In this document: in pieces, positions 5,261 to 32,188 of the stretch
Layout: every line of letters begins with the position of its first letter
How positions within the stretch are numbered: position 1 is the first letter of the stretch
Origin: Eubacteriales bacterium
Lineage (GTDB): Bacteria; Bacillota; Clostridia; Lachnospirales; Lachnospiraceae
Length of the DNA: 33,758 bases
Assembly: GCA_030537195.1 (NCBI GenBank)
Contig: JAUNOK010000026.1
Location: 1 to 33,758 of the forward strand
Direction: 5' to 3'
Made by a program: the position numbers and the translations under genes
The notes under the pieces: generated by a model
Seen by the model: only the letters and a program-made list of their open reading frames with translations
Told to the model about the DNA's origin: nothing
Databases searched by the model: none

Positions 5261-5854
5261 TTAAATATTAGTATTAAGTACAACTGAATCTCTATTCATA
5301 TCAATAACGATATTCTTGCCGCTGTTAATCATAAACAGCTTGACGTAGTTGGCAACAAATGCATATCCAACAGAAGTTATAAAGCTGTAGTCATTATCAA
5401 AACCCTGCTCGTTAGCTGCATACTGCTTATGGTTAGTTATGAGATAATCTAACATTCTGTCAGCAGATACACCACGTCCGCTATTAGATATCAGAGGTTT
5501 GTTGATATCATTCTTAGCTTCTCTTATATAATTCATGAACTTAATTTCATATAACACATGCTCAGACATTGGATCCGGATACCATGAGTTATGTGGAAAT
5601 GTAAAGTAATCCTCTATGTAATGTAAGGCATATCCTAAAGATAAGAAGGATAAACAGTTCATTCGGCCGTGTCTTTCAAGGCGGCGAAGCCTTCTGGCAA
5701 CTTTATCATATGAAGAATCCCATGTATGGCCTTTGATGTATGTATGCAGAAGAATGTCCGGCATAATACTTCCAAGCCTTAAGGCAAGGTTATGTCTTTT
5801 CTTAAGATTAGGGGTAAGTCTCTTGGTTACGGTTACATGTCCGTATTTGTTCAT
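5261..5854 (-). CDS. Zinc-dependent phospholipase C-like protein
   Basis: A 197-residue protein of the zinc-dependent phospholipase C fold. Visible metal-site motifs are KKRHNLALRLGSIMPDI near the N-terminus, then GYALHYIEDYFTFPHN (H-x3-D type helix) and a following EHVLYEIKF. Classical family members hydrolyse phospholipid head groups outside the cell, but this one has no signal peptide, so a cytoplasmic or different hydrolase role is likely. The start at MNKYGHV was chosen because AAAGGA, the best ribosome site, lies just upstream, inside the five-codon extension beginning at 5869. It is divergent from a longer relative at 6119; the 264-base gap between them has no clear consensus promoter for either. 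Confidence 0.75.
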   Translation of the reverse strand: MNKYGHVTVTKRLTPNLKKRHNLALRLGSIMPDILLHTYIKGHTWDSSYDKVARRLRRLERHGRMNCLSFLSLGYALHYIEDYFTFPHNSWYPDPMSEHVLYEIKFMNYIREAKNDINKPLISNSGRGVSADRMLDYLITNHKQYAANEQGFDNDYSFITSVGYAFVANYVKLFMINSGKNIVIDMNRDSVVLNTNI

Positions 5855-6118
5855 TAATTTTCCTTTCAAAAATGCTTTATATCCACGTTAATAAATGGAA
5901 TATAAAATAGTCCTTTAGTCCTATAAAAAAGTATCATCTTTCAATACATTTGTCTAGCACATTATTGAAAAGAATACATGAAATTTATGTAAATTTATTT
6001 TGATGTTCAAGTAAATACAAATCTTACGAACACTTTACAATCGGCAGATATCAGATTTTACAGGGTGTATATATCATTATTTCATTGTAAGAATAATTTA
6101 GACAGAGGAGTGATATAT

Positions 6119-6979
6119 ATGCCATCAACATATGCGCATTACAGATTAGGACAGGAAGTGTTGGATAGCCTGTCAGGAGGAATTAAAAGTACGATTCTTA
6201 ATCATAAACAACTTTACGATATCGGACTTCACGGACCGGACATATTGTTTTACTATAAACCATTATTTTCATGCGAGGTCAATAAACAGGGATATGACAT
6301 GCATGCCAGAAGTGGCAGACAGTTTTTTGAAAATGCGGCCGAGGTATTAAAGAGACTGGAAGGCAGGGATAAAGAGGCGGCGCTCGCTTATGTGTATGGG
6401 TTCTGTTGTCACTTCGCACTTGACGTAAGCTGTCACAGATATATAGATGAAAAGATTGAAGCAGACGGAGTAAGCCATACGGAGATTGAAGTTGAATTTG
6501 ACAGAAGCCTTATGGAAAAAGATGGTTACAACCCTGTAATACACATTTTAACCGACCATATTAAACCGTCTTATGAAAATGCGGATATTATATGCAGATT
6601 TTATGACAACCTGTCATCAGAACAGGTTAAGAAAGCCATGGAAAGCATGATTTCTTATAACAGACTGTTAATTGCACCTTCGAGATTAAAGAGAATGTTA
6701 ATATACGGACTTCTTGGTGTGACAGGCAATTATAAGGAAATGCACGGACTTATAGTTAATTACAAGGCTAATCCGTTATGTGAAGACAGCACACAGAAGC
6801 TGTATAACCTCTATGACAGCGCTGTAAGACTTGCCACAATTCTTATTGGCGAGTTCAGGGACAGCGCAGCAGGACATACAGAGTTTAATAAGATGTATGA
6901 TTATACATTTGGTTCAAAGCTGGAGAGTCAGGAAAACAGCGGGAAAGAATTAATGTGTGAAGGAAGAGAGGCAGTGTAA
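6119..6979 (+). CDS. Zinc-dependent phospholipase C-like protein (longer paralogue)
   Basis: A 286-residue protein of the same fold as its divergent neighbour. It has STYAHYRLGQEVL at the N-terminus, DIGLHGPDILFYY, VYGFCCHFALDVSCHRYID and SHTEIEVEFDRSL, which supply the expected His/Asp/Glu metal ligands. It lacks a secretion signal. The start at MPSTYAH follows AGAGGAG; an 18-residue upstream extension is unsupported. The MFS gene starts 2 bases after the stop, so the two are surely one transcript. Such cytoplasmic members are common in Clostridia and are poorly characterised. Confidence 0.75.
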   Translation: MPSTYAHYRLGQEVLDSLSGGIKSTILNHKQLYDIGLHGPDILFYYKPLFSCEVNKQGYDMHARSGRQFFENAAEVLKRLEGRDKEAALAYVYGFCCHFALDVSCHRYIDEKIEADGVSHTEIEVEFDRSLMEKDGYNPVIHILTDHIKPSYENADIICRFYDNLSSEQVKKAMESMISYNRLLIAPSRLKRMLIYGLLGVTGNYKEMHGLIVNYKANPLCEDSTQKLYNLYDSAVRLATILIGEFRDSAAGHTEFNKMYDYTFGSKLESQENSGKELMCEGREAV

Positions 6980-8985: not shown

Positions 8986-9468
8986 ATGATAGTAAGAGCC
9001 TATGAAGACAAGGATATTAACGCAATGGTTTCAATATGGAATGGTGTTGTGGAGGAAGGAATAGCATTTCCACAGGAAGAGTTTCTTAATGAAGAGACAG
9101 GAAAAGCATTTTTCGCAGAACAGAGCTATTGCGGTGTTGCAGTTGATGATGAGGAAAAAGTTGTTGGAATGTACATTCTTCATCCGAACAATATCGGAAG
9201 ATGTGGACACATAAGCAATGCAAGCTATGCGGTTGACGCACAGTGCCGAGGAAAGCATATTGGAGAAATGCTCGTATCTGACTGCCTTAAGCAGGCTAAG
9301 AGACTGGGATTTCGTGTAATGCAGTTTAATGCTGTTGTTGAAACTAATATCCATGCACGTCATCTGTATGAGAGACTTGGATTTAAACAGTTAGGTACTA
9401 TACCTGGCGGATTCAGAATGAAAGATGGAACATACGTTAATATATGCCCATATTATCATGAACTGTAA
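8986..9468 (+). CDS. GNAT-family N-acetyltransferase
   Basis: A 160-residue single-domain acetyltransferase. VRAYEDKDINAMVSIWNGVV opens the fold. The acetyl-CoA site is in SYAVDAQCRGKHIGEMLVSD (a Q/R-x-x-G-x-G/A variant), and ETNIHARHLYERLGFKQLG is the typical C-terminal GNAT element. The substrate is unknown; the length and ending resemble phosphinothricin- or ribosomal-type acetyltransferases. The start follows TAGGAGATACAGAGTT. It lies 46 bases after the TetR gene and ends before a terminator, so TetR and GNAT probably form one short operon. Confidence 0.85.
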   Translation: MIVRAYEDKDINAMVSIWNGVVEEGIAFPQEEFLNEETGKAFFAEQSYCGVAVDDEEKVVGMYILHPNNIGRCGHISNASYAVDAQCRGKHIGEMLVSDCLKQAKRLGFRVMQFNAVVETNIHARHLYERLGFKQLGTIPGGFRMKDGTYVNICPYYHEL

Positions 9469-9514
9469 GACTTATCTACTGACAGAATATGATATGTATT
9501 TAATATTATAGCAA

Positions 9515-9542
9515 TTCGGACACTTTCACTGATATGTCCGAA
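9515..9542. other. Hairpin without a U-tract
   Basis: TTCGGACA (9515-9522) pairs with TGTCCGAA (9535-9542). No T-run follows, so it is not a proper terminator by itself, but it may protect the 3' end of the GNAT transcript. Confidence 0.5.
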
Positions 9543-9560
9543 ATTAGTACAATTATCACA

Positions 9561-9597
9561 CCCGTGTAGCGTTTTCGAACACTACACGGGTTTTGTT
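9561..9597 (+). terminator. Intrinsic terminator after the GNAT gene
   Basis: CCCGTGTAG (9561-9569) pairs with CTACACGGG (9582-9590) and is followed by TTTTGTT. It separates the TetR-GNAT unit from the acyl-assembly operon. Confidence 0.8.
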
Positions 9598-9621
9598 ATG
9601 CCAAATTTTTACAAAATCGTA

Positions 9622-9627
9622 TATAAT
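9622..9627 (+). promoter_or_regulatory. Likely -10 box of the acyl-assembly operon
   Basis: A perfect TATAAT lies 62 bases before the ACP start. The -35 region at the right distance (TGCCAA, 9599-9604) is a poor match, which suggests activator dependence or weak basal activity. No convincing FapR or FabT palindrome was seen. Confidence 0.5.
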
Positions 9628-9688
9628 ATGCGAGTGCTTTGCTTAATGGAGGCACAATATAATTAAAGAAAAAGGATGGAATATTATA

Positions 9689-9934
9689 ATGAGCGCTAAT
9701 GAAATTATGCCAAAGTTAAAAGACTTTTTATGTGAGAATTTAGGAATTGATGCAGATGTTTTAGAGTTTGATACACAGCTTTTCGGAGATGGAGAAATCG
9801 GACTTGATTCAATCGACTCACTCGAAATCATCGCTTATGTTGATGATGAATTCGGTGTTCAGATGACAGGTGTTGGTAAGGAACACTTCTACAGCATTGA
9901 GACAATCGCTAAGTATATCGAAGAAAATGCATAA
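9689..9934 (+). CDS. Acyl carrier protein, atypical (GLDSID site)
   Basis: An 81-residue acidic four-helix carrier protein. The phosphopantetheine attachment serine is Ser41 in EIGLDSIDSLEI. Housekeeping fatty-acid ACPs usually read DSLDTVEL here, so the DSI-DS pattern leans toward carrier proteins of specialised or secondary acyl pathways. It is the first gene of the operon and would carry the growing chain between the ketosynthase, FabG, FabZ and FabD products encoded downstream. The start follows AAAGGATGG. It is separated from the ketosynthase gene by a 256-base structured leader. Confidence 0.85.
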   Translation: MSANEIMPKLKDFLCENLGIDADVLEFDTQLFGDGEIGLDSIDSLEIIAYVDDEFGVQMTGVGKEHFYSIETIAKYIEENA

Positions 9935-10190
9935 TAAATAAAATGTGGCGGGTGTCAGATGGCTTTTCTGGCACCCGTATTAGTTACGGATGTAAGTTGT
10001 GGGGGATTGATTGGACTTTGTGGGTAGAAACATGACTTGAAAAGTCCAATCCGTCAAGCCAGAGCGAGCAGAATGGACGTTAGAAGCAGAAATGGCACTT
10101 ACAAAGTCCAAATCACCGCAACAGGGCAACTACGCAACCCACCAAACATATTACAAAGAAAATCATGAAAATGACAATAAAGGAGTAATT
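9935..10190 (+). promoter_or_regulatory. Structured leader with mutually exclusive pairings
   Basis: This gap between the ACP and ketosynthase genes holds a hairpin at 9949-9958/9968-9977 (followed by few U residues, so a weak terminator or processing site). Segment A (10009-10021) follows: its first part pairs over 11 bases with B (AAAGTCCAATC, 10041-10051), and its overlapping latter part pairs over 11 bases with C (ACAAAGTCCAA, 10101-10111). Also GTGGGT (10019-10024) matches ACCCAC near 10138. A:B and A:C cannot form together. This resembles an attenuator or a translation switch, but I recognise no known riboswitch. Confidence 0.55.
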
Positions 10191-12584
10191 ATGACAGAGA
10201 ATAATAACCGCGCAGTCATTACAGGTCTTGGAATGATATGTGCAATCGGTAATTCAGTAGATGAAGCATGGAAAATGGCTGTTAATTCGGTTTCAGGAAT
10301 ACATAAGACAACAACACTTGATACAACAGACTGCTACGCAGACCTTGCAGCAGAGGTTAAGTGTGACACACTTGGAGATTTTGAGGGAAGCGAAGATGCT
10401 GACCGTTCAGCACAGCTTTGTATTAAGGCAGCTGGAGAGGCAATGAAGGACGCAGGACTTGATGATTTTGCAGGAGACCCTAAGGCTTCAGTTATTATCG
10501 GAAGCTGTGTCGGTGGTGCAGTCAGCATTTCTGATTACTATGAGCATGGCAAGAAAGCAAGTGATGTAACTAAGATGCCAATTTCATCAATAGCACCTCA
10601 GGTTGCAGGTCAGTGCCATGCAGGCGGTGTCGTTACTAATATTGCAAATGCATGCGCAGCCGGAACAATCAGTATTGCATACGCATGCGAGCTTATCAGA
10701 GCAGGTAAGGCAGATGTAGTACTCGCAGGTGGTTCAGACACATTTGCAGCAGTACCATATGCTGGATTCTTATCACTTCATGCACTTGACGCAGATGGAT
10801 GCTCACCATTCAACAGATGTACAGGAATTACACTTGGTGAAGGTTCTGGTGTTGTAGTAGTAGAAAGCTACGAGCATGCCAAGGCAAGAAATGCCAAGAT
10901 GTATTGTGAAGTATTAGGTGCTGGTGTCAGCAGTGACGCACACCATATCACAGCTCCAAGACCAGACGGAGAAGGTCAGATGGAAGCTATCAACAGAGCA
11001 ATTAAGAATTCAGGATTGAAGAAATCGGACATCGGATATGTTAATGCACACGGAACAGGAACAGCTAAGAATGATGACGCAGAATTCTTATCATTACATA
11101 CAATATTTGACGGCGAGAACGATAACCTTTCAGTAAGCTCAACAAAGGCTATGACAGGACACTGCCTCGGTGCAGCAGGTGCAATCGAAGCAGTATTCTC
11201 AATCAAGGCACTTACAACTAATACAGTAGTTCCAACACTCGGCTTCAAGGATGAGGATATGGATAAGCTTGCACAGAAGGCAGGAAAGATAGATTTCTGC
11301 CCTAACAAGGCACATGAGAAAGAGCTTACAAGCGTAATGAACAACTCATTTGCATTCGGAGGTAATAACGCAAGTATCATCTTTAGCAAAGAGGCTGGTA
11401 ATGTAACAGTTAAGGAAGAGAAGAAGCCGCTTGTTATCACAGGTATTGGCGTGGTTGCACCAAGTGGTAACGGCGTAGATACATATGTTGCAAATGCAGT
11501 GAAAAACGAAGTTCCAGCAGAAGCTAATTTAAGAAGTTCAGTCGGCAAGGAAGATTACGATGCACTTGGACTTAAGATGTCGTTCTACAGAAAGCTTGAT
11601 AACTTCAGCCAGCTTCAGGCAGTATCAGGCATGGAAGCACTTAAGGACGCTGATTATGCAGTAACAGACGATAATGCAACAGATATCGGTATTATTGTGG
11701 GAACATCAGAGGGCGCACTTGGAACATGCTGTGATTTCCAGAGCATGATTACAGAGAAGGGCAATGCTTCAGGAAGCGCATTCAAATTCCCTAACACAGT
11801 ATACAACGCAGCAGGCGGATACCTTTCAATCTGCTCAGGAATCAAGGGCTACAATGTAACAGTTACTAACGGTGCACAGTCAGGTCTTGCAAGTATGGCA
11901 TATGCAATGAGCGTACTCCGTTCAGGTCAGGAAAATGCTATGTTAGCTACTGGTTCTGATGAGAACAGCGACATAATGACAGAGCTTTTCGGTAAGTTAG
12001 GTGTTACATCTGAAAAGGTTGTAGCTCCATTTGCAGGAAATGACGGATTCGTATTAAGCGATGGTAGTGCTTCAGTTCTTATCGAGGACGAGAAGGCAGC
12101 TAAAGAGCGTGGTGCAAGAATCTACTGTCATGCATCAGGTTATGGTATGGCTCATTCAAGTGTTAAGTTCGGAACACTTACAGGTTCAGAGGCAGGTCTT
12201 ACCAATGCAGTTAATAACGCATTAGCAGACGCTGGAATGACAATTGATGATATAGATGCAGTATTCGGTTTCGCAAACGGAATGAAGGCTGTTGATGATG
12301 TAGAAATCAAGGGCTTAACAGCAGTATTTGGCGACAAATTAGCAGAGAAGCCAGTTGTAGAATTAAAGGAAGTTCTTGGAGAGTCAAGAGCAGCAGCAGC
12401 TACAACAGCAGCAGCACACGCAGCACTTATGTTTGCAGGAAAGATACCTTCACAGGAAGCATACAGCATTGCAGCAGACGGAAGCGTTTCTAAGACTAAT
12501 GTAGAAGCTTCTAAGTTAAACAATGTACTTGTAGTTGCTTATGGTGCAGGTGGTTCATACACAGCAATTGTACTCAGCAAGTAA
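10191..12584 (+). CDS. Tandem ketosynthase fusion: active KS plus chain-length-factor-like KS
   Basis: A 797-residue protein made of two full ketosynthase (FabF-type) domains. Domain 1 (about 7-400) keeps the Cys-His-His triad: Cys155 in NACAAG, His287 in NAHGTGT and His324 in GHCLGAAG. It should perform decarboxylative condensation of malonyl-ACP with acyl-ACP. Domain 2 (about 413-797) has Ala562 in NGAQSG where the Cys belongs, and reads FANGMKAVDD and GESRAAAA where the two histidines belong. It is therefore catalytically dead, like the KS-beta/chain-length factor of type II polyketide systems. The two halves are a natural heterodimer joined in one chain. The start at MTENNN follows AAAGGAG; an in-frame extension back to 10092 lies in the structured leader. 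Confidence 0.85.
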   Translation: MTENNNRAVITGLGMICAIGNSVDEAWKMAVNSVSGIHKTTTLDTTDCYADLAAEVKCDTLGDFEGSEDADRSAQLCIKAAGEAMKDAGLDDFAGDPKASVIIGSCVGGAVSISDYYEHGKKASDVTKMPISSIAPQVAGQCHAGGVVTNIANACAAGTISIAYACELIRAGKADVVLAGGSDTFAAVPYAGFLSLHALDADGCSPFNRCTGITLGEGSGVVVVESYEHAKARNAKMYCEVLGAGVSSDAHHITAPRPDGEGQMEAINRAIKNSGLKKSDIGYVNAHGTGTAKNDDAEFLSLHTIFDGENDNLSVSSTKAMTGHCLGAAGAIEAVFSIKALTTNTVVPTLGFKDEDMDKLAQKAGKIDFCPNKAHEKELTSVMNNSFAFGGNNASIIFSKEAGNVTVKEEKKPLVITGIGVVAPSGNGVDTYVANAVKNEVPAEANLRSSVGKEDYDALGLKMSFYRKLDNFSQLQAVSGMEALKDADYAVTDDNATDIGIIVGTSEGALGTCCDFQSMITEKGNASGSAFKFPNTVYNAAGGYLSICSGIKGYNVTVTNGAQSGLASMAYAMSVLRSGQENAMLATGSDENSDIMTELFGKLGVTSEKVVAPFAGNDGFVLSDGSASVLIEDEKAAKERGARIYCHASGYGMAHSSVKFGTLTGSEAGLTNAVNNALADAGMTIDDIDAVFGFANGMKAVDDVEIKGLTAVFGDKLAEKPVVELKEVLGESRAAAATTAAAHAALMFAGKIPSQEAYSIAADGSVSKTNVEASKLNNVLVVAYGAGGSYTAIVLSK

Positions 12585-12651
12585 TGAGAACATGGGCAGA
12601 TGCCTATGACAAAGAACTGACATTTTCTTATAGAAGAAAGGACACACAGAT

Positions 12652-13383
12652 ATGAAAGTAGCATTAGTTACAGGGGCTTCCCGTGGTATAGGTAAGGCTT
12701 GTGCAATCCGTCTTGCAAAAGACGGATACGCCGTAGTCATCAATTACAGCCATTCAGAGGAACAGGCACAGAAGGTTCTCGATGAAATCGTGGCAGCAGG
12801 CGGCACAGCCATAACATATAAAGCAGATGTTTCAGACCTTAATCAGGTTAAGCAGATGGTTAAAGATGTAAGCAAGGAACTTGGCGGAATAGATGTACTC
12901 GTAAACAACGCAGGAATCGTAAGAGATGAGTACCTTCTTATGCTCAACAAAGATACACTTGATACATGCATGGATCTTAATGTTAAAGGTTACTTCTACT
13001 GCGCACAGCAGGCAGTACTTAAAATGTTCAGAAAGAAGAGCGGTGTCATCATCAACATGTCATCAGTAAGCTCGAAATTCGCACTTCCTGGACAGTCTGT
13101 ATACAGCGCAACAAAGGGAGCTGTTAATTCAATGACACAGACAATGGCTAAGGAGCTTGCAGGTTACGGAATCCGTGTAAATGCAGTAGCACCGGGATTC
13201 ATAGAGACAGAAATGCTTGATGCAATTCCAGAAGAGAAGAAGAAAGAGTATTTGGACGCAATCCCAATGCATAAGTTAGGAAAGGCAGAAGATGTAGCCA
13301 ATGTTGTATCATCACTCTGCTCAGACGCATTTTCATATGTAACAGGTCAGGTTATCGTGCTTGATGGAGGATTATCATTATGA
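12652..13383 (+). CDS. fabG: 3-oxoacyl-ACP reductase (FabG)
   Basis: A 243-residue short-chain dehydrogenase with TGASRGIG (residues 7-14, NADPH-binding), NNAG near 85-88, and Ser138-Tyr151-Lys155 (MSSVS, YSATK), the same numbering as typical FabG. It reduces the 3-keto group made by the ketosynthase to 3-hydroxyacyl-ACP in the cytoplasm. AGAAAGGA precedes the ATG by 9 bases. The stop overlaps the FabZ start (ATGA), so these genes are translationally coupled. Confidence 0.92.
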   Translation: MKVALVTGASRGIGKACAIRLAKDGYAVVINYSHSEEQAQKVLDEIVAAGGTAITYKADVSDLNQVKQMVKDVSKELGGIDVLVNNAGIVRDEYLLMLNKDTLDTCMDLNVKGYFYCAQQAVLKMFRKKSGVIINMSSVSSKFALPGQSVYSATKGAVNSMTQTMAKELAGYGIRVNAVAPGFIETEMLDAIPEEKKKEYLDAIPMHKLGKAEDVANVVSSLCSDAFSYVTGQVIVLDGGLSL

Positions 13384-13838
13384 TGAACATATTTGAGATT
13401 AATAAAAGAATCGGACAGCGCCCACCTTTTCAGATGATTGAGAAGGTGTTGGAGCTTGAACCTAATGTAAGTGCCAGAGGTATTAAAAATGTATCAATCA
13501 ATGAACCATATTTTATGGGACATTTTCCTGACGCACCTATAATGCCGGGAGTGCTTATAATCGAGAGCTGCGCACAGCTCTGCTCACTCGTAATTGATGA
13601 CGGTGGAAAGAGCAGGGAAGAGGGCAAATTATATGTGCTTCTTAAAGTAGATGGATTCAAGTTCGTAAAGCCTGTAATTCCGGGAGATACACTTGATATT
13701 ACAGTTACAGCTACAAGAATCAACAAGGTTCTTGCAGCATTTGACGCGGTAGTCAAGGTAGATGGCAATGTGTACGCAAAGGGAAGCATGACATTTACAA
13801 CAGTAGACCGCAAGGATATATATGGTGAAAACGCATAG
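13380..13838 (+). CDS. fabZ: 3-hydroxyacyl-ACP dehydratase (FabZ)
   Basis: A 152-residue hot-dog fold protein. The active-site helix GHFPDAPIMPGVLIIES carries His48 and Glu62. It removes water from 3-hydroxyacyl-ACP to give trans-2-enoyl-ACP. The start overlaps the fabG stop, with GGAGG 9 bases upstream inside fabG. A second Met follows immediately, so the true start is 13380 or 13383. With no enoyl reductase of a known type in the operon, the fate of its product is an open question. Confidence 0.92.
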   Translation: MMNIFEINKRIGQRPPFQMIEKVLELEPNVSARGIKNVSINEPYFMGHFPDAPIMPGVLIIESCAQLCSLVIDDGGKSREEGKLYVLLKVDGFKFVKPVIPGDTLDITVTATRINKVLAAFDAVVKVDGNVYAKGSMTFTTVDRKDIYGENA

Positions 13839-13868
13839 AAGCAGTTGACTTACAGATAGGAGATTATT

Positions 13869-14798
13869 ATGGGAAAAATAGCAGTATTGTTTTCAGGTCA
13901 GGGTGCTCAGTATGTAGGAATGGGCAAAGACCTTTACGATTCAGATTCTAATGCAAAGAAGTTATATGACTTAGGAGAGTCACTCCGTCCGGGAACAGTT
14001 AAGGTATGCTTTGAAGGCGAGGGCGAGGAGCTTACTAAGACAGAGAATACACAGCCGGCACTTTTCCTCACAGACCTTGCATTTGCCAATGCACTTAAGG
14101 ATGCTGGAATTAAGGCTGATGCTGTAGCAGGATTTTCACTTGGAGAGATTCCTGCACTTGCATACGCAGGAGTTTTATCGACAGAGGACGCATTTAAACT
14201 GGTAGTTATCAGAGGCACTAAGATGGGCGAACTCTCTACAAAGTATGCAGGCGGAATGGCAGCAGCACTTAAGCTTGCTCCAGAAGTTGTTGAAGAAACT
14301 TGCAAGGAATTCAAGGAAATCTGGCCAGTTAATTATAATTGTCCGGGACAGATTTCATGTGCAGGAAGTGCTGATGAGATAGACGCATTCTGTGCAGCAA
14401 TCAAGGAAAAAGGCGGCAGAGCAGTTAAGCTTGCAGTAAGTGGTGCTTTCCATACACCATACATGAAGGAAGCAAGTGAGGAGCTTGGAAAGGCACTTAA
14501 GACAATGACAATTAATGCCCCTCAGACAGATATATATGCCAACAGAACAGGAAAGCCTTATCCACAGGATGCAGCACAGATTGCAGAAACAATAGCACTT
14601 CAGGCTTCTTCAAGCGTAAAGTTTGAGGACACACTTAAGAATATGTGGGCTGACGGAATAGACACATTTATCGAGGTAGGAGCAGGAAAGACTCTTACAG
14701 GATTTGTCAAGAAGACACTTCCAGAAGCAAAGATGTACACAGTTACAACAGTTGATGCGTTGAATGAAGCAATTGAGAACATCAAGGCAGGAGAATAA
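13869..14798 (+). CDS. fabD: Malonyl-CoA:ACP transacylase (FabD)
   Basis: A 309-residue acyltransferase of normal FabD length. It has FSGQGAQYVGMG at the N-terminus, the nucleophile Ser90 in GFSLGE, Arg114 in IRGTKM (the carboxylate-binding Arg that selects malonyl), and His194 in GAFHTPYM. It loads malonyl groups onto the ACP. The usual motif is GHSLG; here the His before Ser is Phe, seen in some acyltransferases but worth noting. The start follows TAGGAGATTATT. accD begins 2 bases after the stop. Confidence 0.9.
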   Translation: MGKIAVLFSGQGAQYVGMGKDLYDSDSNAKKLYDLGESLRPGTVKVCFEGEGEELTKTENTQPALFLTDLAFANALKDAGIKADAVAGFSLGEIPALAYAGVLSTEDAFKLVVIRGTKMGELSTKYAGGMAAALKLAPEVVEETCKEFKEIWPVNYNCPGQISCAGSADEIDAFCAAIKEKGGRAVKLAVSGAFHTPYMKEASEELGKALKTMTINAPQTDIYANRTGKPYPQDAAQIAETIALQASSSVKFEDTLKNMWADGIDTFIEVGAGKTLTGFVKKTLPEAKMYTVTTVDALNEAIENIKAGE

Positions 14799-14800
14799 TA

Positions 14801-15571
14801 ATGACAGTTAAATGTAACAAATGTAAAGAAGAAATCAACAAAGAAGATTTAGAGAAGAATTACTACATATGTCCGTTATGCGGAAAGTTAAACCGTATGC
14901 CGGCAAAGAACAGACTTCAGATGCTTACAGAAAAGTTTGATGTAATGTTTAATGACCAGGAATTTACAGACCCTATCAATTTCCCTTCTTACAAGGAAAA
15001 GTACGAGTCTGCCAGAGAAAAAAGTGGCGAGACAGAGGGCGTTGTATGTGGCAGAGGAACTATTGGCGGACAGGATACATGTATATTCATTATGGAGCCT
15101 AACTTCATGATGGGTTCTATGGGAACAGTTGTCGGAGACAGAATTACAGCACTTTTTGAGTATGCTACAAAGCACAGACTTCCTGTTATTGGCTATACAG
15201 TTTCAGGTGGTGCAAGAATGCAGGAGGGTGCGCTGTCACTTATGCAGATGGCTAAGGTTTCAGCAGCAGCCAAGAGACACAGTGACGCAGGACTTTTATA
15301 TGTTGTATGTACAACAGACCCTACAATGGGCGGTGCTACAGCCAGCTTTGCAATGCTTGGAGATATAATCATATCTGAACCGGGTGCAATGATTGGATTC
15401 GCCGGAAAGCGAGTTGTAGAGCAGGTTACAGGTGAAGTGCTTCCGGATAATTTCCAGAGCGCAGAGTTCCAGTTAAAGAACGGATTCATTGATGATATCG
15501 TACCAAGACAGGAACAGAAAGCATATCTTGCTAACATTCTTGCAATACATGCAGAAACAGTAAGTGCATAA
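14801..15571 (+). CDS. accD: Acetyl-CoA carboxylase carboxyltransferase beta subunit (AccD)
   Basis: A 256-residue carboxyltransferase. A zinc ribbon is formed by Cys5, Cys8, Cys24 and Cys27; then come VSGGARMQEG and MIGFAGKRVVEQ, conserved in AccD. With AccA it moves the carboxyl group from biotin to acetyl-CoA to make malonyl-CoA, the substrate of FabD and the ketosynthase. It is at the short end for AccD. No biotin carrier (AccB) or biotin carboxylase (AccC) is in this operon, so these must come from elsewhere. The AccA gene follows 36 bases later, after a small TATTGC/GCAATA hairpin. Confidence 0.9.
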   Translation: MTVKCNKCKEEINKEDLEKNYYICPLCGKLNRMPAKNRLQMLTEKFDVMFNDQEFTDPINFPSYKEKYESAREKSGETEGVVCGRGTIGGQDTCIFIMEPNFMMGSMGTVVGDRITALFEYATKHRLPVIGYTVSGGARMQEGALSLMQMAKVSAAAKRHSDAGLLYVVCTTDPTMGGATASFAMLGDIIISEPGAMIGFAGKRVVEQVTGEVLPDNFQSAEFQLKNGFIDDIVPRQEQKAYLANILAIHAETVSA

Positions 15572-15607
15572 CAGTATTGCTTTGCAATATAAGGAGAAAG
15601 ATTAATC

Positions 15608-16516
15608 ATGGCAAACGAGAATTTAAGTGTTTATGACAGAATCTGCCGTACAAGAAAGAGTGGCAGAGCAACTGCATTAGATTATATAAATGCTACAATA
15701 ACTGATTTTGTAGAACTTCACGGTGACAGATGTTTCGCAGACGACCATGCTATTGTTGGTGGTATTGGACGACTTAACGGAAAGCCTGTAACTGTAATCG
15801 GAATTGAAAAGGGAAGAGACTTAAACGAAAGACTTTTAAGAAATTTTGGATGCGTTCTTCCAGAGGGATACAGAAAAGCATTAAGACTTATCAAGCAGGC
15901 TGAGAAGTTCCACAGACCTGTTATCTGCTTTGTTGATACACAGGGAGCTAACTGTGGTAAGGGCGCAGAGGAAAGAGGACAGGGACAGGCAATTGCCAAC
16001 AACCTGTATGAGCTTACAGATGTTAAGACACCTATTATATCAGTAATGATTGGCGAAGGTGGAAGCGGCGGCGCACTTGCACTTGCTGTAGCCGATGAAG
16101 TATGGATGCTTGAAAATGCATATTATTCAGTAATCACACCTGAGTCATGTGCAAGTATTCTTTTCAAAGATCCTAAGAGAGCGCCTGAGGCGGCAGAACA
16201 TCTTAAACTTACAGCTGCTGACCTTAATAAAATGGGTATCGTAGAAAAGGTTGTTGAAGAACCTGAAGATTTTTCAGAAGAAAAAGAGACAGCACATTTT
16301 ATGAAAAAGCTTGCTGACGACCTTTCAAAGGAATTAAAGCAGTTAGAGAAGAAACCGGTTGACAAGCTTCTTGATGACAGATATGAGAAATACAGAAAAA
16401 TAGGCCGTTACAGTGAATACAGTCAGGCAGTAGGAGAAGTTCCTGGTGCAGCACAGTTACTTGGCGCATCACAGGCTCCTGCAAGAAAGAGAAGAGGATT
16501 ATTTGGACGTGGCTAA
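15608..16516 (+). CDS. accA: Acetyl-CoA carboxylase carboxyltransferase alpha subunit (AccA)
   Basis: A 302-residue partner of AccD. EGYRKALRLIKQAEKF, GAEERGQGQAIANNL, IGEGGSGGALALAVADEV and YSVITPESCASILFKD match AccA. The usual FIDTPGAYPG segment reads FVDTQGANCG here, a small departure in a conserved region. The C-terminal tail (KRRGLFGRG) is basic. AAGGAGAAAGATTAATC precedes the ATG. Its last bases overlap the GTG start of the flavoprotein, so expression of the two is tied together. Confidence 0.9.
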   Translation: MANENLSVYDRICRTRKSGRATALDYINATITDFVELHGDRCFADDHAIVGGIGRLNGKPVTVIGIEKGRDLNERLLRNFGCVLPEGYRKALRLIKQAEKFHRPVICFVDTQGANCGKGAEERGQGQAIANNLYELTDVKTPIISVMIGEGGSGGALALAVADEVWMLENAYYSVITPESCASILFKDPKRAPEAAEHLKLTAADLNKMGIVEKVVEEPEDFSEEKETAHFMKKLADDLSKELKQLEKKPVDKLLDDRYEKYRKIGRYSEYSQAVGEVPGAAQLLGASQAPARKRRGLFGRG

Positions 16517-17231
16517 GATATTAGTTTTAAATGGAAGTCCACATAAGAGTGCCAGCACTACAATGGCGGTAACTAACGCATTTGTAAAAGGAATGTGTGA
16601 AGGCGGTGAATACGAGTCGGAGATAATTAATATCTCCGACTTAAATGTTACCCCTTGCATGGGCTGCCTTTCATGCTGGGCAAGGACTGAGGGTGAGTGT
16701 GTTATCAAAAATGATGACATGCCGGCAGTTAAGAAAAAGATTGAGGAAGCAGACATTATAATTGAAAGTTATCCGCTGTATTTCTTCGGAATGCCGGGGC
16801 AGATGAAGCTTTTTACAGACAGACTTTTAAGTATGATGTGTACTTACAGGGGACAGAAGCCGCCTGAAAATGGCGAATCATTTCACGGCATAAGAAATCC
16901 GAAGCCGGGACAGAAGCTTGTTCTTATATCAGGCTGTGCTTATTCGGAGTCAGAGTCAGTCTATGACTCGCTTCTTAAAGAATATGAGTGCATATGCGGT
17001 AAAGATGGATTTACTGCAATTCTATGTCCACAGTTAAAGACATTAATTGAACTGGGTGCAAGTTCAAGACTTGACAGATATTTATCAAGGTATGAGGCAG
17101 CTGGAAAAGAATTTGCTGCGACAAAACATTTGTCAGAGGAAACTAAAGAGAAGCTGGCCAAAGTGCCATTTTCAGAGGCAGTGTATAAGAATCTGCTTGA
17201 TAATTTCTGGCGGGAGCAGAAGGAGGGCTAA
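16509..17231 (+). CDS. Flavodoxin-fold NAD(P)H-dependent oxidoreductase with Cys motif
   Basis: A 240-residue FMN-binding oxidoreductase. ILVLNGSPHKSASTTMAV (residues 4-21) is the FMN phosphate loop, and ESYPLYFFGMPGQMKLFTDR is the second flavin-contact region. Cys50, Cys53, Cys56 and Cys64 form C-x2-C-x2-C-x7-C, the spacing of iron-sulfur flavoprotein (Isf)-like proteins; many relatives carry this motif and not all bind a cluster. The GTG start, overlapping accA by 8 bases, was chosen because AGAGGA lies upstream and VAKILVLNGS is the normal family start. Being inside the acyl operon, it may supply electrons or act as an unusual reductase. Confidence 0.8.
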   Translation: MAKILVLNGSPHKSASTTMAVTNAFVKGMCEGGEYESEIINISDLNVTPCMGCLSCWARTEGECVIKNDDMPAVKKKIEEADIIIESYPLYFFGMPGQMKLFTDRLLSMMCTYRGQKPPENGESFHGIRNPKPGQKLVLISGCAYSESESVYDSLLKEYECICGKDGFTAILCPQLKTLIELGASSRLDRYLSRYEAAGKEFAATKHLSEETKEKLAKVPFSEAVYKNLLDNFWREQKEG

Positions 17232-17288
17232 ATCCTCTCCTCGTCAAAAGACTCGGATTTTACTTCGTAAAACAAGGAGGATTAGAAT

Positions 17289-18278
17289 TTGATTAAGATA
17301 GTTGTAGATTTGCTTGGCGCTGACAAGCCGCAGACAGAGCTGGTTTCGGGCGCAATCAGGGCAATCAATGAGAATAAAGATTTATATGTATATCTGATGG
17401 GAAGGAAAGCCGAGCTTGAGGATTTCCTTGCTAACGTAGCTTATGATGAATCGCAGCTTGAGATTGTGGACTGCACACAGGAGATAACTAATTATGATGA
17501 TCCGGTTGATGCTTACCATGACAAGACGGATTCGTCATTAATCAAGGGACTTAAAATGTGCCGTATGAACGAGGATATTGGCGGATTCGTGACATGTGGC
17601 GCGACAGGTGTTGTGCTTATAAGCTCAATCCTTATACTTGGCAAGCTGAATGCGACAAGACCAGCACTTTCAGTAGTGCTTAATGGCCGTAATGACAAGC
17701 CGTTCTGTATAGTTGACTGCGGTGCTAATATTGACTGCAAGGCAGACCGTTTTGTTGATTTTGCAAGACTCGGCGTGGCTTACATGAAGACTCTTGGAGT
17801 TGAGAATCCTACAGTTGCCACACTTTCTAACGGAATTGAAGCAGGCAAGGGAAGTGATGTCATTAAGGCAGCTCATGAGCTTTTGGAAAAATGCGGTTTT
17901 AATTTCACAGGTAATATTGAGGGCAAAGAAGTATTAGACGGCAATGCAGATGTTGTTGTATGTGACGGATTTGCAGGGAATGTTCTTCTCAAGTCAATTG
18001 AAGGAACGGCAAAGGTTGTATTTGACGACATAAGAAGAGCAGCAGCCGGTGCATCTGATGCTGAAAAGGCACAGATTGAGGCACTTGTCAGCAGACTTGA
18101 GCCTAAGTTTGATTATAATAACGAAGGTGGAGCTATACTTCTTGGTGTTAAGAAGCCTGTTGTTAAAGGACATGGTGCAGCAACGGACAAAACAGTATAT
18201 AATACAGTCAAGATTGCTTACGGACTCGCAAAGAATAATCTTGTTGAGAAGATAAGCGAAGAATTTAAGAAAAAGTAA
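17289..18278 (+). CDS. PlsX-like phosphate acyltransferase family protein
   Basis: A 329-residue protein matching the PlsX family, which makes acyl-phosphate from acyl-ACP for phospholipid synthesis. Matching segments are TCGATGVVL (SGNTGA-like in typical PlsX), VDCGANIDCKAD, DVVVCDGFAGNVLLKS and KKPVVKGHGAATD. The N-terminus reads VVDLLGADKP where PlsX usually has a DxMGGD motif, so this is a divergent member and may be a second copy with a different acyl preference. It starts with TTG, 8 bases after a strong AAGGAGG at 17274-17280. It would release the finished chain from the operon's ACP. Confidence 0.8.
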   Translation: MIKIVVDLLGADKPQTELVSGAIRAINENKDLYVYLMGRKAELEDFLANVAYDESQLEIVDCTQEITNYDDPVDAYHDKTDSSLIKGLKMCRMNEDIGGFVTCGATGVVLISSILILGKLNATRPALSVVLNGRNDKPFCIVDCGANIDCKADRFVDFARLGVAYMKTLGVENPTVATLSNGIEAGKGSDVIKAAHELLEKCGFNFTGNIEGKEVLDGNADVVVCDGFAGNVLLKSIEGTAKVVFDDIRRAAAGASDAEKAQIEALVSRLEPKFDYNNEGGAILLGVKKPVVKGHGAATDKTVYNTVKIAYGLAKNNLVEKISEEFKKK

Positions 18279-18301
18279 TTAAGAAATGGGAATTAAGAAA
18301 T
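18277..18301 (+). repeat. Short direct repeat after the PlsX-like gene
   Basis: AATTAAGAAAT at 18277-18287 is repeated at 18291-18301 after GGG, and overlaps the stop codon of the PlsX-like gene. It has the same style as the repeat at 8939, and is probably replication slippage. Confidence 0.6.
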
Positions 18302-18328
18302 AGAAATATCCATCGAGGCGATTGAATA

Positions 18329-19102
18329 ATGCAAAGAGAGAAAAACAATAATTTTATTCTTGATTTCACTGGTGTATATGATGACGAGTTTGCTAAGAAC
18401 AGGACATCACTTACATGGATAGACTGCTCAGATATTACAGGGTGTGATATGTATGTATCAGACGAAGCTAAGAAGCAGATAGGTGAAAGAATCGATTCTG
18501 TTGGAATTCATGGAATACATTTTCTTGATTCAGGTAACTATCATTATGTTACTAAGATAATGACTGACAGAATTAAGGAACCGTTTTCTTTAGTTGTATT
18601 TGATCATCATACTGATATGCAGAAGCCTATGATTGAAGGTCTGACAAGCTGCGGAGACTGGGCCGGGAAGGTGCTTGAAGACAATCCGTATCTTTGCCAG
18701 CTCATTCTTGTAGGACCAGAGGAGAAAGATATTAATGCGATTGAGTTAAGAAGTGATAAACTTATAACTTATTCAGCGCAGGAGATAAGAAATGAGGCAA
18801 TGGAATCTAAAACTAACCAGATTGACTTGTCAGTTCCTGTATATATATCTATTGATAAGGATGTTCTTGATGAAAGCATAAGTGAAACCAATTGGAGTCA
18901 GGGGCATATGAGGCTTGGCACATTAGAGCATATGCTTGGGATAATTATAAGAAACCAGAAGGTTTTAGGAATTGATATATGTGGTGAATGTAATACAGAT
19001 ATGCCACTTCCCGAATATATGGAAGATGAGGAAAAGAACGGAGAACTTAATAAAGAATTATATGATTTTCTTATGAAACGACTGAAAAAATATAGTTTAT
19101 AA
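18329..19102 (+). CDS. Arginase/ureohydrolase-family protein
   Basis: A 257-residue enzyme of the arginase-agmatinase-formiminoglutamase superfamily. Manganese ligands are His72 (GNYHY, where arginase has GGDH), Asp92-His94-Asp96 (FDHHTD), Asp176 and Asp178 (SIDKDV); Glu220 (DICGE) follows. It probably hydrolyses a guanidino or related C-N bond; the substrate is unknown, and the shorter length and altered GGDH make true arginase unlikely. It follows the PlsX-like gene by 50 bases with no terminator between, so it is likely the last gene of the same transcript. The ribosome site (GAGGCGA) is weak. Confidence 0.75.
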   Translation: MQREKNNNFILDFTGVYDDEFAKNRTSLTWIDCSDITGCDMYVSDEAKKQIGERIDSVGIHGIHFLDSGNYHYVTKIMTDRIKEPFSLVVFDHHTDMQKPMIEGLTSCGDWAGKVLEDNPYLCQLILVGPEEKDINAIELRSDKLITYSAQEIRNEAMESKTNQIDLSVPVYISIDKDVLDESISETNWSQGHMRLGTLEHMLGIIIRNQKVLGIDICGECNTDMPLPEYMEDEEKNGELNKELYDFLMKRLKKYSL

Positions 19103-19111
19103 ATATTTTAT

Positions 19112-19155
19112 AATTCCGCAATCCCGCGTAAATACTGGGCTTGCGGAATTTTTTA
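19112..19155 (+). terminator. Intrinsic terminator of the acyl-assembly operon
   Basis: AATTCCGCAA (19112-19121) pairs with TTGCGGAATT (19141-19150), with inner CCC/GGG, and is followed by a T-run. Confidence 0.9.
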
Positions 19156-19173
19156 ATTAGAAAACAAAAATAA

Positions 19174-19200
19174 TTAGCACTCACCTCTTGACAGTGCTAA
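19174..19200 (+). promoter_or_regulatory. CIRCE element (HrcA operator)
   Basis: TTAGCACTC (19174-19182), a 9-base spacer and CAGTGCTAA (19192-19200) match the CIRCE consensus TTAGCACTC-N9-GAGTGCTAA with one mismatch. HrcA binds this to repress heat-shock genes at normal temperature. Confidence 0.92.
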
Positions 19201-23550: not shown

Positions 23551-23635
23551 TATTCCAAATGTTAATGGTTATATATGTCATTACATTGAGAGTATATGCT
23601 ATAATAAAATGTATACAATGTTGAGGAGGGAAGCG

Positions 23636-24367
23636 ATGGACAATTTTAAAGAATGGCTTATAGAACGTTTTACTATAGAGAAAAAAAGATTTGACCGTTC
23701 GGGAATATATGCTTACACGCAAAGAGCAATGGCATATAATTCCAATAAGATTGAAGGAAGTACTCTGACACCGGAGCAGACAGCTTCTCTGTTTGATACT
23801 GGAATACTGCCGAGGACAGATGATTATTATAGAGCTAAAGATGTGGAAGAAATGAATGGACATTTTTTGATGTTTAATTATATGTTAGACACATTGAATC
23901 ATGATTTGTCGCAGGAGATGATAAAACATTTTCATTATGAACTGAAATCAGGTGTATTTGAGGACAGGGCAAATGGATATGCAATAGGTGAATACAAAGA
24001 GCGTCCGAATATGATAGGCATGTATCAGACTACATCTCCGAAAGAAGTTGCGAATGAGATGGGGAAATTATTGGAATGGTATCATTCAAGTAATAAGGAT
24101 ATGGAAACGCTTGCAGAATTTCATGCCAGATATGAAGCAATACATCCATTTCAGGATGGCAATGGAAGAACCGGCCGTATGATTTTATTTAGAGAGAGTT
24201 TGAAAAATGAAGGAATGAAGCCGTTTATTGTATTGGATGTGCATAGACCCGAATATATTGAAGGACTTAAACAATATAGAGAAGAGCATAGTATAAGCAG
24301 ACTGGCAGCATTAATGCAGACAGAAGCAGATGAATATTATAAGCAATGTGAATATTTTATGGGATAA
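23636..24367 (+). CDS. Fic-family AMPylase-like protein with N-terminal inhibitory helix
   Basis: A 243-residue Fic protein. The catalytic loop HPFQDGNGRTGR (His170 to Arg181) is complete, so it should transfer AMP or a similar group from a nucleotide to a target hydroxyl. Residues 36-41, SNKIEG, match the inhibitory motif (S/T)xxxE(G/N) and lie N-terminal to the Fic core, so the protein carries its own brake and needs no separate antitoxin. The start at MDNFKEW follows GAGGAGGG; a TATAAT box at 23600-23605 lies upstream. It stands alone before the TauE-like gene. Confidence 0.85.
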   Translation: MDNFKEWLIERFTIEKKRFDRSGIYAYTQRAMAYNSNKIEGSTLTPEQTASLFDTGILPRTDDYYRAKDVEEMNGHFLMFNYMLDTLNHDLSQEMIKHFHYELKSGVFEDRANGYAIGEYKERPNMIGMYQTTSPKEVANEMGKLLEWYHSSNKDMETLAEFHARYEAIHPFQDGNGRTGRMILFRESLKNEGMKPFIVLDVHRPEYIEGLKQYREEHSISRLAALMQTEADEYYKQCEYFMG

Positions 24368-31109: not shown

Positions 31110-31138
31110 GATTACATAAATAGTGACAGGAGAGATTG

Positions 31139-32188
31139 ATGAGAAGTTTTGATTATAAAGAAGAATGGAAAAAACTGCTTACTCCGGAGATAGTGACATA
31201 TTTAACACAGATTCATGAATTTAAGGGTGAGCAGACTTTATTTATAAAGGAAAAAGCTGATACATTATCGCAATTGGTTGATACAGCTAAGATTCAGAGT
31301 ACAGAAGCTTCTAATAAAATAGAAGGTATATATACATCAGATGAACGGTTGAAGGCACTGGTGAAGGACAGCACGAGACCTAGAACGCGCAATGAGCGAG
31401 AAATAGCGGGGTATAGGGATGTGTTGAATATTATTCATGAGAATCATGATTATATTCCACCGAAACCTTCAATTATTTTGCAATTGCACAGAGACTTATA
31501 TAAATTTGAGGGAATGGATATCGGGGGCAGATATAAAACATCTGATAATATTATTGAAGAACAGGACGCGGAGGGAAATAAATCTGTCAGATTCAGACCT
31601 ATGCCGGCATGGGAAACACCGGAGGCAGTTGAAGAATTGTGTCAGTCATATGATGAAGCGCTAAATTCAGGAAATATAGATGCACTTATTCTTATACCAA
31701 TGTTTGTCTTGGATTTTCTGTGTGTACATCCATTTAATGATGGGAATGGGAGACTTAGCAGATTGCTGACATTATTATTGTTGTACAGGTCAGGATATAT
31801 CGTAGGTAAATATATAAGTATAGAGAAATTAATTGAGCAGACTAAAGAAATATATTATGAAAGTCTTCAATTAAGCTCTGCAGGGTGGCATGAGAATAAA
31901 AATGATTATGAGCCATTTGTTAAGTATATGCTGGGAGTTATTGTTGCAGCATATAGAGAGTTTTCATCGCGAGTAAGTCTGCTGACTACGCAGGGAATGT
32001 CAAAGCCGGACAGAGTTAAAGAAATTATTAGGGCAACTCTAGGACCGATAACCAAGACAGAGATATTAGAAAAATGTCCAGATATAAGTCAGGTGACAGT
32101 TCAAAGGGCGCTTGCGGATTTAGTTGATAAAGGCTATATTGTCAAACTTGGTGGTGGAAGATATACCAAATATATATGGAATAATTAA
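31139..32188 (+). CDS. Fic-family protein with winged-helix C-terminal domain
   Basis: A 349-residue Fic protein. The inhibitory motif SNKIEG is at 58-63 and the catalytic loop HPFNDGNGRLSR runs from His197 to Arg208. The C-terminal part (about 285-349) has VKEIIRATLGPITKTEILEK then VTVQRALADLVDKGYIVKLG, a winged-helix DNA-binding domain. It could both AMPylate a target and bind DNA, perhaps its own promoter. The ATG at 31139 follows AGGAGAGATTG. HsdM starts 19 bases after its stop, so the two are one operon. This layout beside type I restriction genes has been seen in other bacteria. Confidence 0.85.
   Translation: MRSFDYKEEWKKLLTPEIVTYLTQIHEFKGEQTLFIKEKADTLSQLVDTAKIQSTEASNKIEGIYTSDERLKALVKDSTRPRTRNEREIAGYRDVLNIIHENHDYIPPKPSIILQLHRDLYKFEGMDIGGRYKTSDNIIEEQDAEGNKSVRFRPMPAWETPEAVEELCQSYDEALNSGNIDALILIPMFVLDFLCVHPFNDGNGRLSRLLTLLLLYRSGYIVGKYISIEKLIEQTKEIYYESLQLSSAGWHENKNDYEPFVKYMLGVIVAAYREFSSRVSLLTTQGMSKPDRVKEIIRATLGPITKTEILEKCPDISQVTVQRALADLVDKGYIVKLGGGRYTKYIWNN

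Follow-up and report, generated by a model that had tools for sequence, protein, structure and literature searches.

A stand-alone fusion of an active ketosynthase and a chain-length-factor-like ketosynthase within a type II acyl operon

A single 797-aa chain encoded in the 33,758-nucleotide stretch of Lachnospiraceae DNA analysed here (the window) joins an active ketosynthase (KS) to a catalytically dead KS that resembles a chain-length factor (CLF). The explanation that we favour, and consider probable, is a stand-alone KS-CLF pseudo-heterodimer of the highly-reducing type II polyketide synthase (PKS)/fatty acid synthase (FAS) kind, which would make a length-controlled and probably partly unsaturated chain for lipid. 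The KS-CLF mode of action is a part of this explanation that we hold with good confidence; a polyene-type product, predicted by analogy, is plausible but falls somewhat short of being probable.

Two ketosynthase halves in one chain

The ORF tool returned a frame of 830 aa (10092-12584), but because the internal ATG at 10191 is preceded by the ribosome-binding site AAGGAG, we place the start of the gene there (797 aa), as in the first-pass annotation. The protein and its parts are located as follows:

10191..12584, + strand: fused ketosynthase/chain-length-factor-like protein, 797 aa (Pfam, motifs, residue census)
10191..11390, + strand: domain 1, active KS (TIGR03150, 344 bits, cut-off 493.75; conserved catalytic residues)
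10653-10655, 11049-11051 and 11160-11162, + strand: codons of Cys155, His287 and His324 in domain 1
11421..12581, + strand: domain 2, catalytically dead CLF-like KS (TIGR03150, 146 bits; residue census; tree)
11874-11876, 12270-12272 and 12381-12383, + strand: codons of Ala562, Phe694 and Glu731 in domain 2

Pfam detected KS domains only in the 797-aa chain, with PF00109 and PF02801 each matched twice, which bears out the earlier claim of two full-length KS halves; a short linker joins the active N-terminal KS to the full-length C-terminal one. Domain 1 carries the motifs NACAAG at 153 (Cys155), NAHGTG at 285 (His287) and GHCLG at 323 (His324). In domain 2, the motif NGAQSG at 560 places Ala562 in the position of the cysteine, and in an alignment with FabF, KS-alpha and CLF rows the positions of the two histidines are taken by Phe694 and Glu731, just as the first-pass annotation had described their loss. 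Both the whole protein (478 bits) and domain 1 (344 bits) stay below the cut-off of the FabF equivalog model TIGR03150 (493.75), whereas under the looser subfamily model NF005589 the whole protein passes (450 bits, cut-off 387) and domain 1 alone does not (330 bits).

Relatives and their distribution

The same gene and operon are found on a 626-kb replicon of [Eubacterium] eligens ATCC 27750, whose protein (WP_041688922.1) is 98.4% identical to that of the window and is annotated merely as a 'beta-ketoacyl-[acyl-carrier-protein] synthase family protein'. With half 2 alone as the query, 299 genomes of the same family yielded homologues (40-55% identity) in five genomes other than that of the window, all of them fused; the one at 40% (genome G106) is an intact ORF of 737 aa whose second half is shorter. 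A sixth genome holds a divergent fused homologue (28%), and the other best matches listed among the 299 genomes have E values no better than 7e-33 and mostly occupy frames about as long as a single KS.

When genome contigs were scanned with six half-2 sequences, there were 288 pattern matches and 263 relatives, and the best 80 of the relatives were studied. The fusion is seen in 79 of these 80 loci: 74 proteins are full-length and fused (73 by ORF picking, plus L060, found whole by tblastn), and L067, L089, L099, L106 and L120 start at a contig edge, with the remaining part fused. The locus L048, also at a contig edge, shows half 2 only. By the submitters' names the best 80 comprise Clostridia (46), Mollicutes (13), Spirochaetia (12), Erysipelotrichia (3), Bacilli (3), Bacillota without class (1), Bacteroidia (1) and one without a name, and include Treponema and Anaeroplasma/Acholeplasmatales; the single Bacteroidia row is a near-copy of Clostridia rows and probably a misnamed bin. 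One scan with the window protein found no viral copies.

A quick tree of 73 fused proteins places the window together with strain AF22-9 among 11 Treponema/Spirochaetia rows (SH-aLRT 95), away from the Lachnospiraceae rows. Because of this grouping, a transfer of the fused gene between phyla is likely, though not proved.

Conservation of both halves

Alignment A3 holds 73 rows, the window included and L045 left out. Cys155 and His287 are present in all 73 and His324 in 72, the remaining residue being an X, so that motifs and census agree on the catalytic triad that had been proposed for domain 1. Position 562 is variable, with A in 37 rows, S in 13, P in 11, T in 3, N in 3, V in 2 and M, F, C and I once each; Cys is thus absent from 72 of the 73 rows, and the only protein to have it, from Anaeroplasma bactoclasticum (L092, 341-2776), still misses both histidines. 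Position 694 is F in 66 rows, L in 6 and M in 1, and His occurs at 694 or 731 in none. Glu731 and Arg733 are both invariant (73/73), and Gln563 is found in 62 of the 73 rows. Codon comparison gave dN/dS values of 0.031 (half 1) and 0.035 (half 2) against E. eligens, and of 0.034 and 0.033 against strain AF22-9; purifying selection is equally strong on both halves.

These data leave next to no probability for an artefact of sequencing or assembly, or for a duplicate in decay, against which stand the 74 full-length fused relatives among the 80, the near-identity of the ATCC 27750 protein along its whole length and the dN/dS of about 0.03 in both halves. Conservation and dN/dS rule out a pseudogene or a sequencing error, and a check for error at Ala562 and the missing histidines found none, the substitutions being kept across the 73 aligned rows. 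Another reading makes domain 2 a mere scaffold that stabilises the active KS and has no influence on chain length. The variability of position 562 speaks for it and makes a catalytic role of domain 2 unlikely, but the invariant Glu731 and Arg733, the full length of the domain and its low dN/dS suggest that it is more than a prop, and we consider the scaffold reading improbable.

Ancestry of the two halves

A tree of 50 rows was built from the separated halves of 16 fused proteins, together with 10 FabF-type proteins, 3 KS-alpha, 3 CLFs and 2 KS from a gene cluster of Escherichia coli CFT073, which we take to be an aryl polyene cluster; the E. coli CLF row (240 aa, with a very long branch) was left out. 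All 16 domain-2 rows group with the three actinobacterial CLFs and all 16 domain-1 rows with active KS (support 98/92). Domain 1 falls outside the housekeeping FabF clade, and one FabF-type row (Photobacterium) groups with a KS of the aryl polyene cluster. A tree forced to unite the two halves of the window family is worse by 51 log units and is rejected (p-AU 0.004), and a recent tandem duplication of one KS is rejected with it. As the tree holding both halves together is rejected, the two halves are, judged from their sequences, an old pair.

In the best tree domain 2 is separate from active FabF copies, a point that mattered to the first-pass reading, but the separation is not fully secure: a tree that constrains domain 2 with nine FabF rows costs 14 log units and is not rejected (p-AU 0.185). 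Domain 2 may accordingly be described as a candidate member of the CLF lineage, favoured at 98/92 in the best tree, with a FabF origin at p-AU 0.185 and long branches to be borne in mind.

The operon and its neighbourhood

The genes and structures around the fusion in the window are the following:

9560..9591, + strand: terminator-like hairpin ahead of the operon (fold -19.3 kcal/mol, z -4.0), then TTTGTTAT
9689..9934, + strand: acyl carrier protein (ACP), 81 aa (PF00550, 1.3e-8)
9948..9978, + strand: strong hairpin between the ACP and KS-CLF genes, without a T run (RNA fold)
12652..13383, + strand: 3-oxoacyl-ACP reductase, FabG-like KR (TIGR01830, 273 bits, below the cut-off of 297.75)
13380..13838, + strand: FabZ-like dehydratase, DH (NF000582, 135 bits, above the cut-off of 113; TIGR01750, 135 bits, below 155)
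13869..14798, + strand: FabD-like malonyl transferase (TIGR00128, 253 bits, below the cut-off of 260.9)
14801..15571, + strand: AccD-like carboxyltransferase beta subunit (TIGR00515, 294 bits, below the cut-off of 317.45)
15608..16516, + strand: AccA carboxyltransferase alpha subunit (TIGR00513, 344 bits, above the cut-off)
16509..17231, + strand: flavoprotein of FMN_red/flavodoxin type with CX2CX2CX7C (PF03358); its GTG start overlaps accA
17289..18278, + strand: second PlsX, a phosphate acyltransferase paralogue (TIGR00182, 249 bits, above the cut-off)

The first-pass proposal of a KS-CLF-like pair in one chain, set in an operon resembling fatty acid synthesis, is supported by these assignments. 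Pfam, TIGR and NF profiles run on the operon proteins recognised ACP, KR and DH and no known enoyl reductase, and aryl starter genes (ammonia lyase, ligase) were likewise absent from the operon proteins scanned; at one relative's locus (L039) there is a gene for an AMP-binding enzyme. The segment 9935-10000 folds at -23.2 kcal/mol (z -4.1), with none of 200 shuffles equally stable, and its hairpin could attenuate the transcript and leave ACP in excess. A consensus scan of 9300-19200 found 21 promoter-like signals against 22.2 in shuffles and 4 terminator-like signals against 6.3; the hairpin at 9560..9591 is missing from the terminator output.

Neighbours were counted up to nine genes from the fusion in 81 loci, made up of 78 contig loci out of the 80 together with the window, L039 and L040. 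The counts are lower bounds, given contig ends and simple ORF picking, with clusters named from a few tested members: KR 71, flavoprotein 66, DH 64, ACP 54 (directly upstream, at position -1, in 51), AT 35, PlsC-type acyltransferase 35, AccD 27, AccA 26, TetR 20, patatin 19, second ACP 19, AccB 18, AccC 18 and PlsX 13. The core consists of ACP, KS-CLF, KR, DH and flavoprotein, often beside PlsX or PlsC-type acyltransferases. In the operon of one relative, a single ORF (L038, 12815-14512) matches both AccD and AccA, which are thus fused there.

The core proteins of the window have higher median identities to those of distant bacteria (KR 70%, DH 66%, KS-CLF 62%, ACP 59%) than to their housekeeping counterparts in the window genome (42, 32, 37 and 26%, respectively). 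AccD (50% versus 49%) and AccA (51% versus 48%) are about equally close to both, and the carboxylase may therefore have been recruited locally.

Elsewhere in the window, two Fic-family genes were found (23609-24367 and 31136-32188), the latter directly before a gene for an HsdM-type DNA methylase (32208-33710) near the contig end. A zinc-dependent phospholipase C domain is encoded at 6065-6979 (+), and a gene at 5261-5869 (-), compared by length and orientation, matches an E. eligens gene annotated as zinc-dependent phospholipase C.

The flavoprotein of the core matches PF03358/PF02525 and has only remote solved relatives (best E 4e-5). The motif CX2CX2CX4-9C occurs in 67 of 67 homologues, its four cysteines being at least 90% conserved; the motif is of the iron-sulfur flavoprotein (Isf) type. 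At E below 1e-30, a threshold that also takes in a 39% paralogue elsewhere in the window genome, a homologue is present in 40 of 41 genomes and lies on the contig of the fusion in 38; it is on another contig in two Treponema genomes (G302, G303), and in G312, the genome lacking it, a contig end interrupts the operon. The gene often occupies the place expected for an enoyl reductase; to our knowledge, no enoyl reductase activity has been described in this flavoprotein family. Three Treponema operons (L049-L051) have no flavoprotein gene beside the fusion.

Proposed mechanism

We propose that the N-terminal half would act as the condensing enzyme and the C-terminal half as its non-catalytic, CLF-like partner, covalently fixed, one chain thereby forming the pseudo-heterodimer that type II PKSs build from two proteins. 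The AT would load malonyl on ACP, the KS half would condense, KR and DH would act, and the cycle would iterate until the dead half, by closing the pocket, limits chain length. Excerpts of PMC12664062 describe priming of KS/CLF complexes by malonyl decarboxylation. Since the operon has no enoyl reductase of a known kind, the chain would probably leave the cycle unsaturated, in part or throughout, in the manner of highly-reducing type II PKSs and of aryl polyene systems, the latter being the analogy behind this prediction (PMC8358021 and PMC8041823, in the parts available). The product would then be handed to a dedicated PlsX, in the window, or to a PlsC-type acyltransferase, in relatives, and so reach lipid. 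The analysis itself establishes the fusion, its residues and their conservation, the selection on both halves, the gene neighbourhood and the co-occurrence pattern; dimer packing, length control, unsaturation and the lipid end product are what we infer. Against this explanation count the unrejected tree of domain 2 with FabF, the FabK of the window genome, which could saturate the chain in trans, and the fact that domain 2 has Ala562 with Gln next to it where the three actinobacterial CLFs have Gln at that very position.

Other condensing enzymes and alternative explanations

The window genome and 40 of the 80, chosen for spread, were searched for further enzymes of fatty acid synthesis. As most of these 41 genomes are metagenome bins of untold completeness, single gene absences mean little; the pattern of absences seen in many bins, and also in the named strain Anaeroplasma bactoclasticum ATCC 27112, is stronger. 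In 17 of the 41 (G299, G301, G304, G307-G310, G312-G316 and G321-G325), PF02801 is limited to the two halves of the fused protein. In sixteen of these FabH was not matched either, except for a partial match of 20 bits in G307; the seventeenth, G301, does have FabH and may be an incomplete bin. This pattern favours a saturated FAS of set length, in which FabK would act in trans and the KS-CLF would replace FabF and, through decarboxylation of malonyl-ACP, FabH as well. In its favour are also the six of the 16 genomes, ATCC 27112 among them, with FabK at 340-402 bits (below the cut-off of 453), and several Acholeplasmatales operons that add AccB, AccC, AccD, AccA, AT and a second ACP (types tested on L061). 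FabK-family matches reach at least 340 bits in 24 of the 41 genomes, 7 of them over the curated cut-off; 12 further genomes have weak matches only, and so have 10 of the 16, which counts against a saturated product. The other enoyl reductases help it no more: an E. coli FabI query found only matches of 22-34% identity in all 41 genomes, mostly at the operon's own KR, and FabI in trans was rejected, whereas FabV was found in 4 of the 41, all Treponema/Spirochaetia, and in none of the 16. The window genome, moreover, keeps FabF, FabH and FabK together on contig C38, and for this reason the KS-CLF pathway is accessory there. Taken as a whole, the saturated FAS is a serious but unlikely alternative. 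A separate reading applies to bacteria of the Anaeroplasma/Acholeplasmatales type: a self-contained, fatty-acid-like synthase without FabH, FabF and, in many, FabI/FabK/FabV, with a self-priming KS-CLF as sole condenser and the flavoprotein, perhaps ferredoxin-fed, as a new enoyl reductase, which Lachnospira would have acquired as an accessory lipid pathway. The operons L049-L051, with no adjoining flavoprotein gene, weaken this reading, which we rate as distinctly unlikely.

An elongase of outside fatty acids would work in the other direction, with a fatty acid kinase making acyl phosphate, the dedicated PlsX transferring the chain to ACP and the KS-CLF extending it; FabH would be unneeded. 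Two PlsX matches were found in 17 of the 41 genomes, four of the second copies having one stop in the matched stretch, and the window genome has its other PlsX on contig C33. The operon PlsX of the window is 55% identical to the second PlsX of A. bactoclasticum, which lies directly behind DegV- and FakA-like genes (L138, 4845-8398), an arrangement in keeping with an elongase. No FakA/FakB-like gene adjoins the PlsX of the window, however, and the malonyl-transferase and carboxylase genes that the operon itself carries are just as compatible with de novo synthesis, which leaves the elongase with little probability.

If the protein is the KS-CLF pseudo-heterodimer that we favour, its one gene with a built-in 1:1 stoichiometry offers a handy test system for length control by chain-length factors. 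It marks an acyl pathway in the human-gut species Lachnospira eligens as well as in bacteria from rumen and gut that span three phyla, and raises the question of whether a KS-CLF can be the only condensing enzyme of an organism's fatty acid synthesis.

Comparison with known systems

Domain 1 shares its family and catalytic triad with FabF (KAS II), and differs from it in missing the equivalog cut-off (344 versus 493.75 bits) and in lying outside the housekeeping FabF clade. In type II PKSs, among which we count Iga11-Iga12 as a highly-reducing KS-CLF pair, the heterodimer is assembled from KS and CLF as two distinct proteins, whereas the window family has them in one chain in 79 of 80 loci; their CLFs have Gln in the Cys position, where domain 2 of the window has Ala562, with Gln563 beside it in 62 of 73 rows. 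The cluster of E. coli CFT073 encodes, by annotation, similar kinds of gene to those found here, namely KS, CLF, KR, DH, ACPs and a lysophospholipid acyltransferase. An active KS with a non-catalytic partner, ACP, KR and DH is common to the window operon and to highly-reducing and aryl polyene (ApeO-ApeC) systems, as far as excerpts of PMC8358021 and PMC8041823 describe them; the window operon differs in that no aryl-starter genes were seen in it, and the hosts of its family are Clostridia, wall-less Mollicutes and spirochaetes.

A fused KS-KS protein of Priestia megaterium plasmid pBM500 is 33% identical over 99% of the query, and its second half lacks Cys and His, like domain 2. Its neighbours differ, being GcvT-like, thioesterase and PPTase genes, and its domain 1 groups apart from that of the window family in the 50-row tree. 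A second, divergent family of fused KS-CLF, carried by P. megaterium plasmids and by one genome from the same family as the window, is seen at L126 (13998-16427) and L041 (3950-6394), each time beside a glycine-cleavage-T-like gene.

A catalogue of type II PKSs (PMC10132072, in the parts available) includes KS-CLF pairs from Firmicutes and human-gut metagenomes, its main text containing neither 'fused' nor 'fusion'. In the open-licence literature searched we found no description of a fused stand-alone KS-CLF in these bacteria, an absence that is weak evidence, and as far as such searches reach the acyl pathway of the operon is undescribed. KS and CLF in one chain, with a proposed intramolecular dimer, are described for polyunsaturated fatty acid (PUFA) synthases (PfaC; thraustochytrid PfaB) in excerpts of PMC13311796, a precedent that the first-pass annotation does not mention. 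Compared by architecture only, the window protein differs from these in being a stand-alone 797-aa chain of a type II operon, with no AT or DH domains and no megasynthase around it. Within the open-licence literature, then, the fusion of KS and CLF is known from PUFA synthases, and what is new is a stand-alone fused KS-CLF around which a type II operon of gut bacteria is built.
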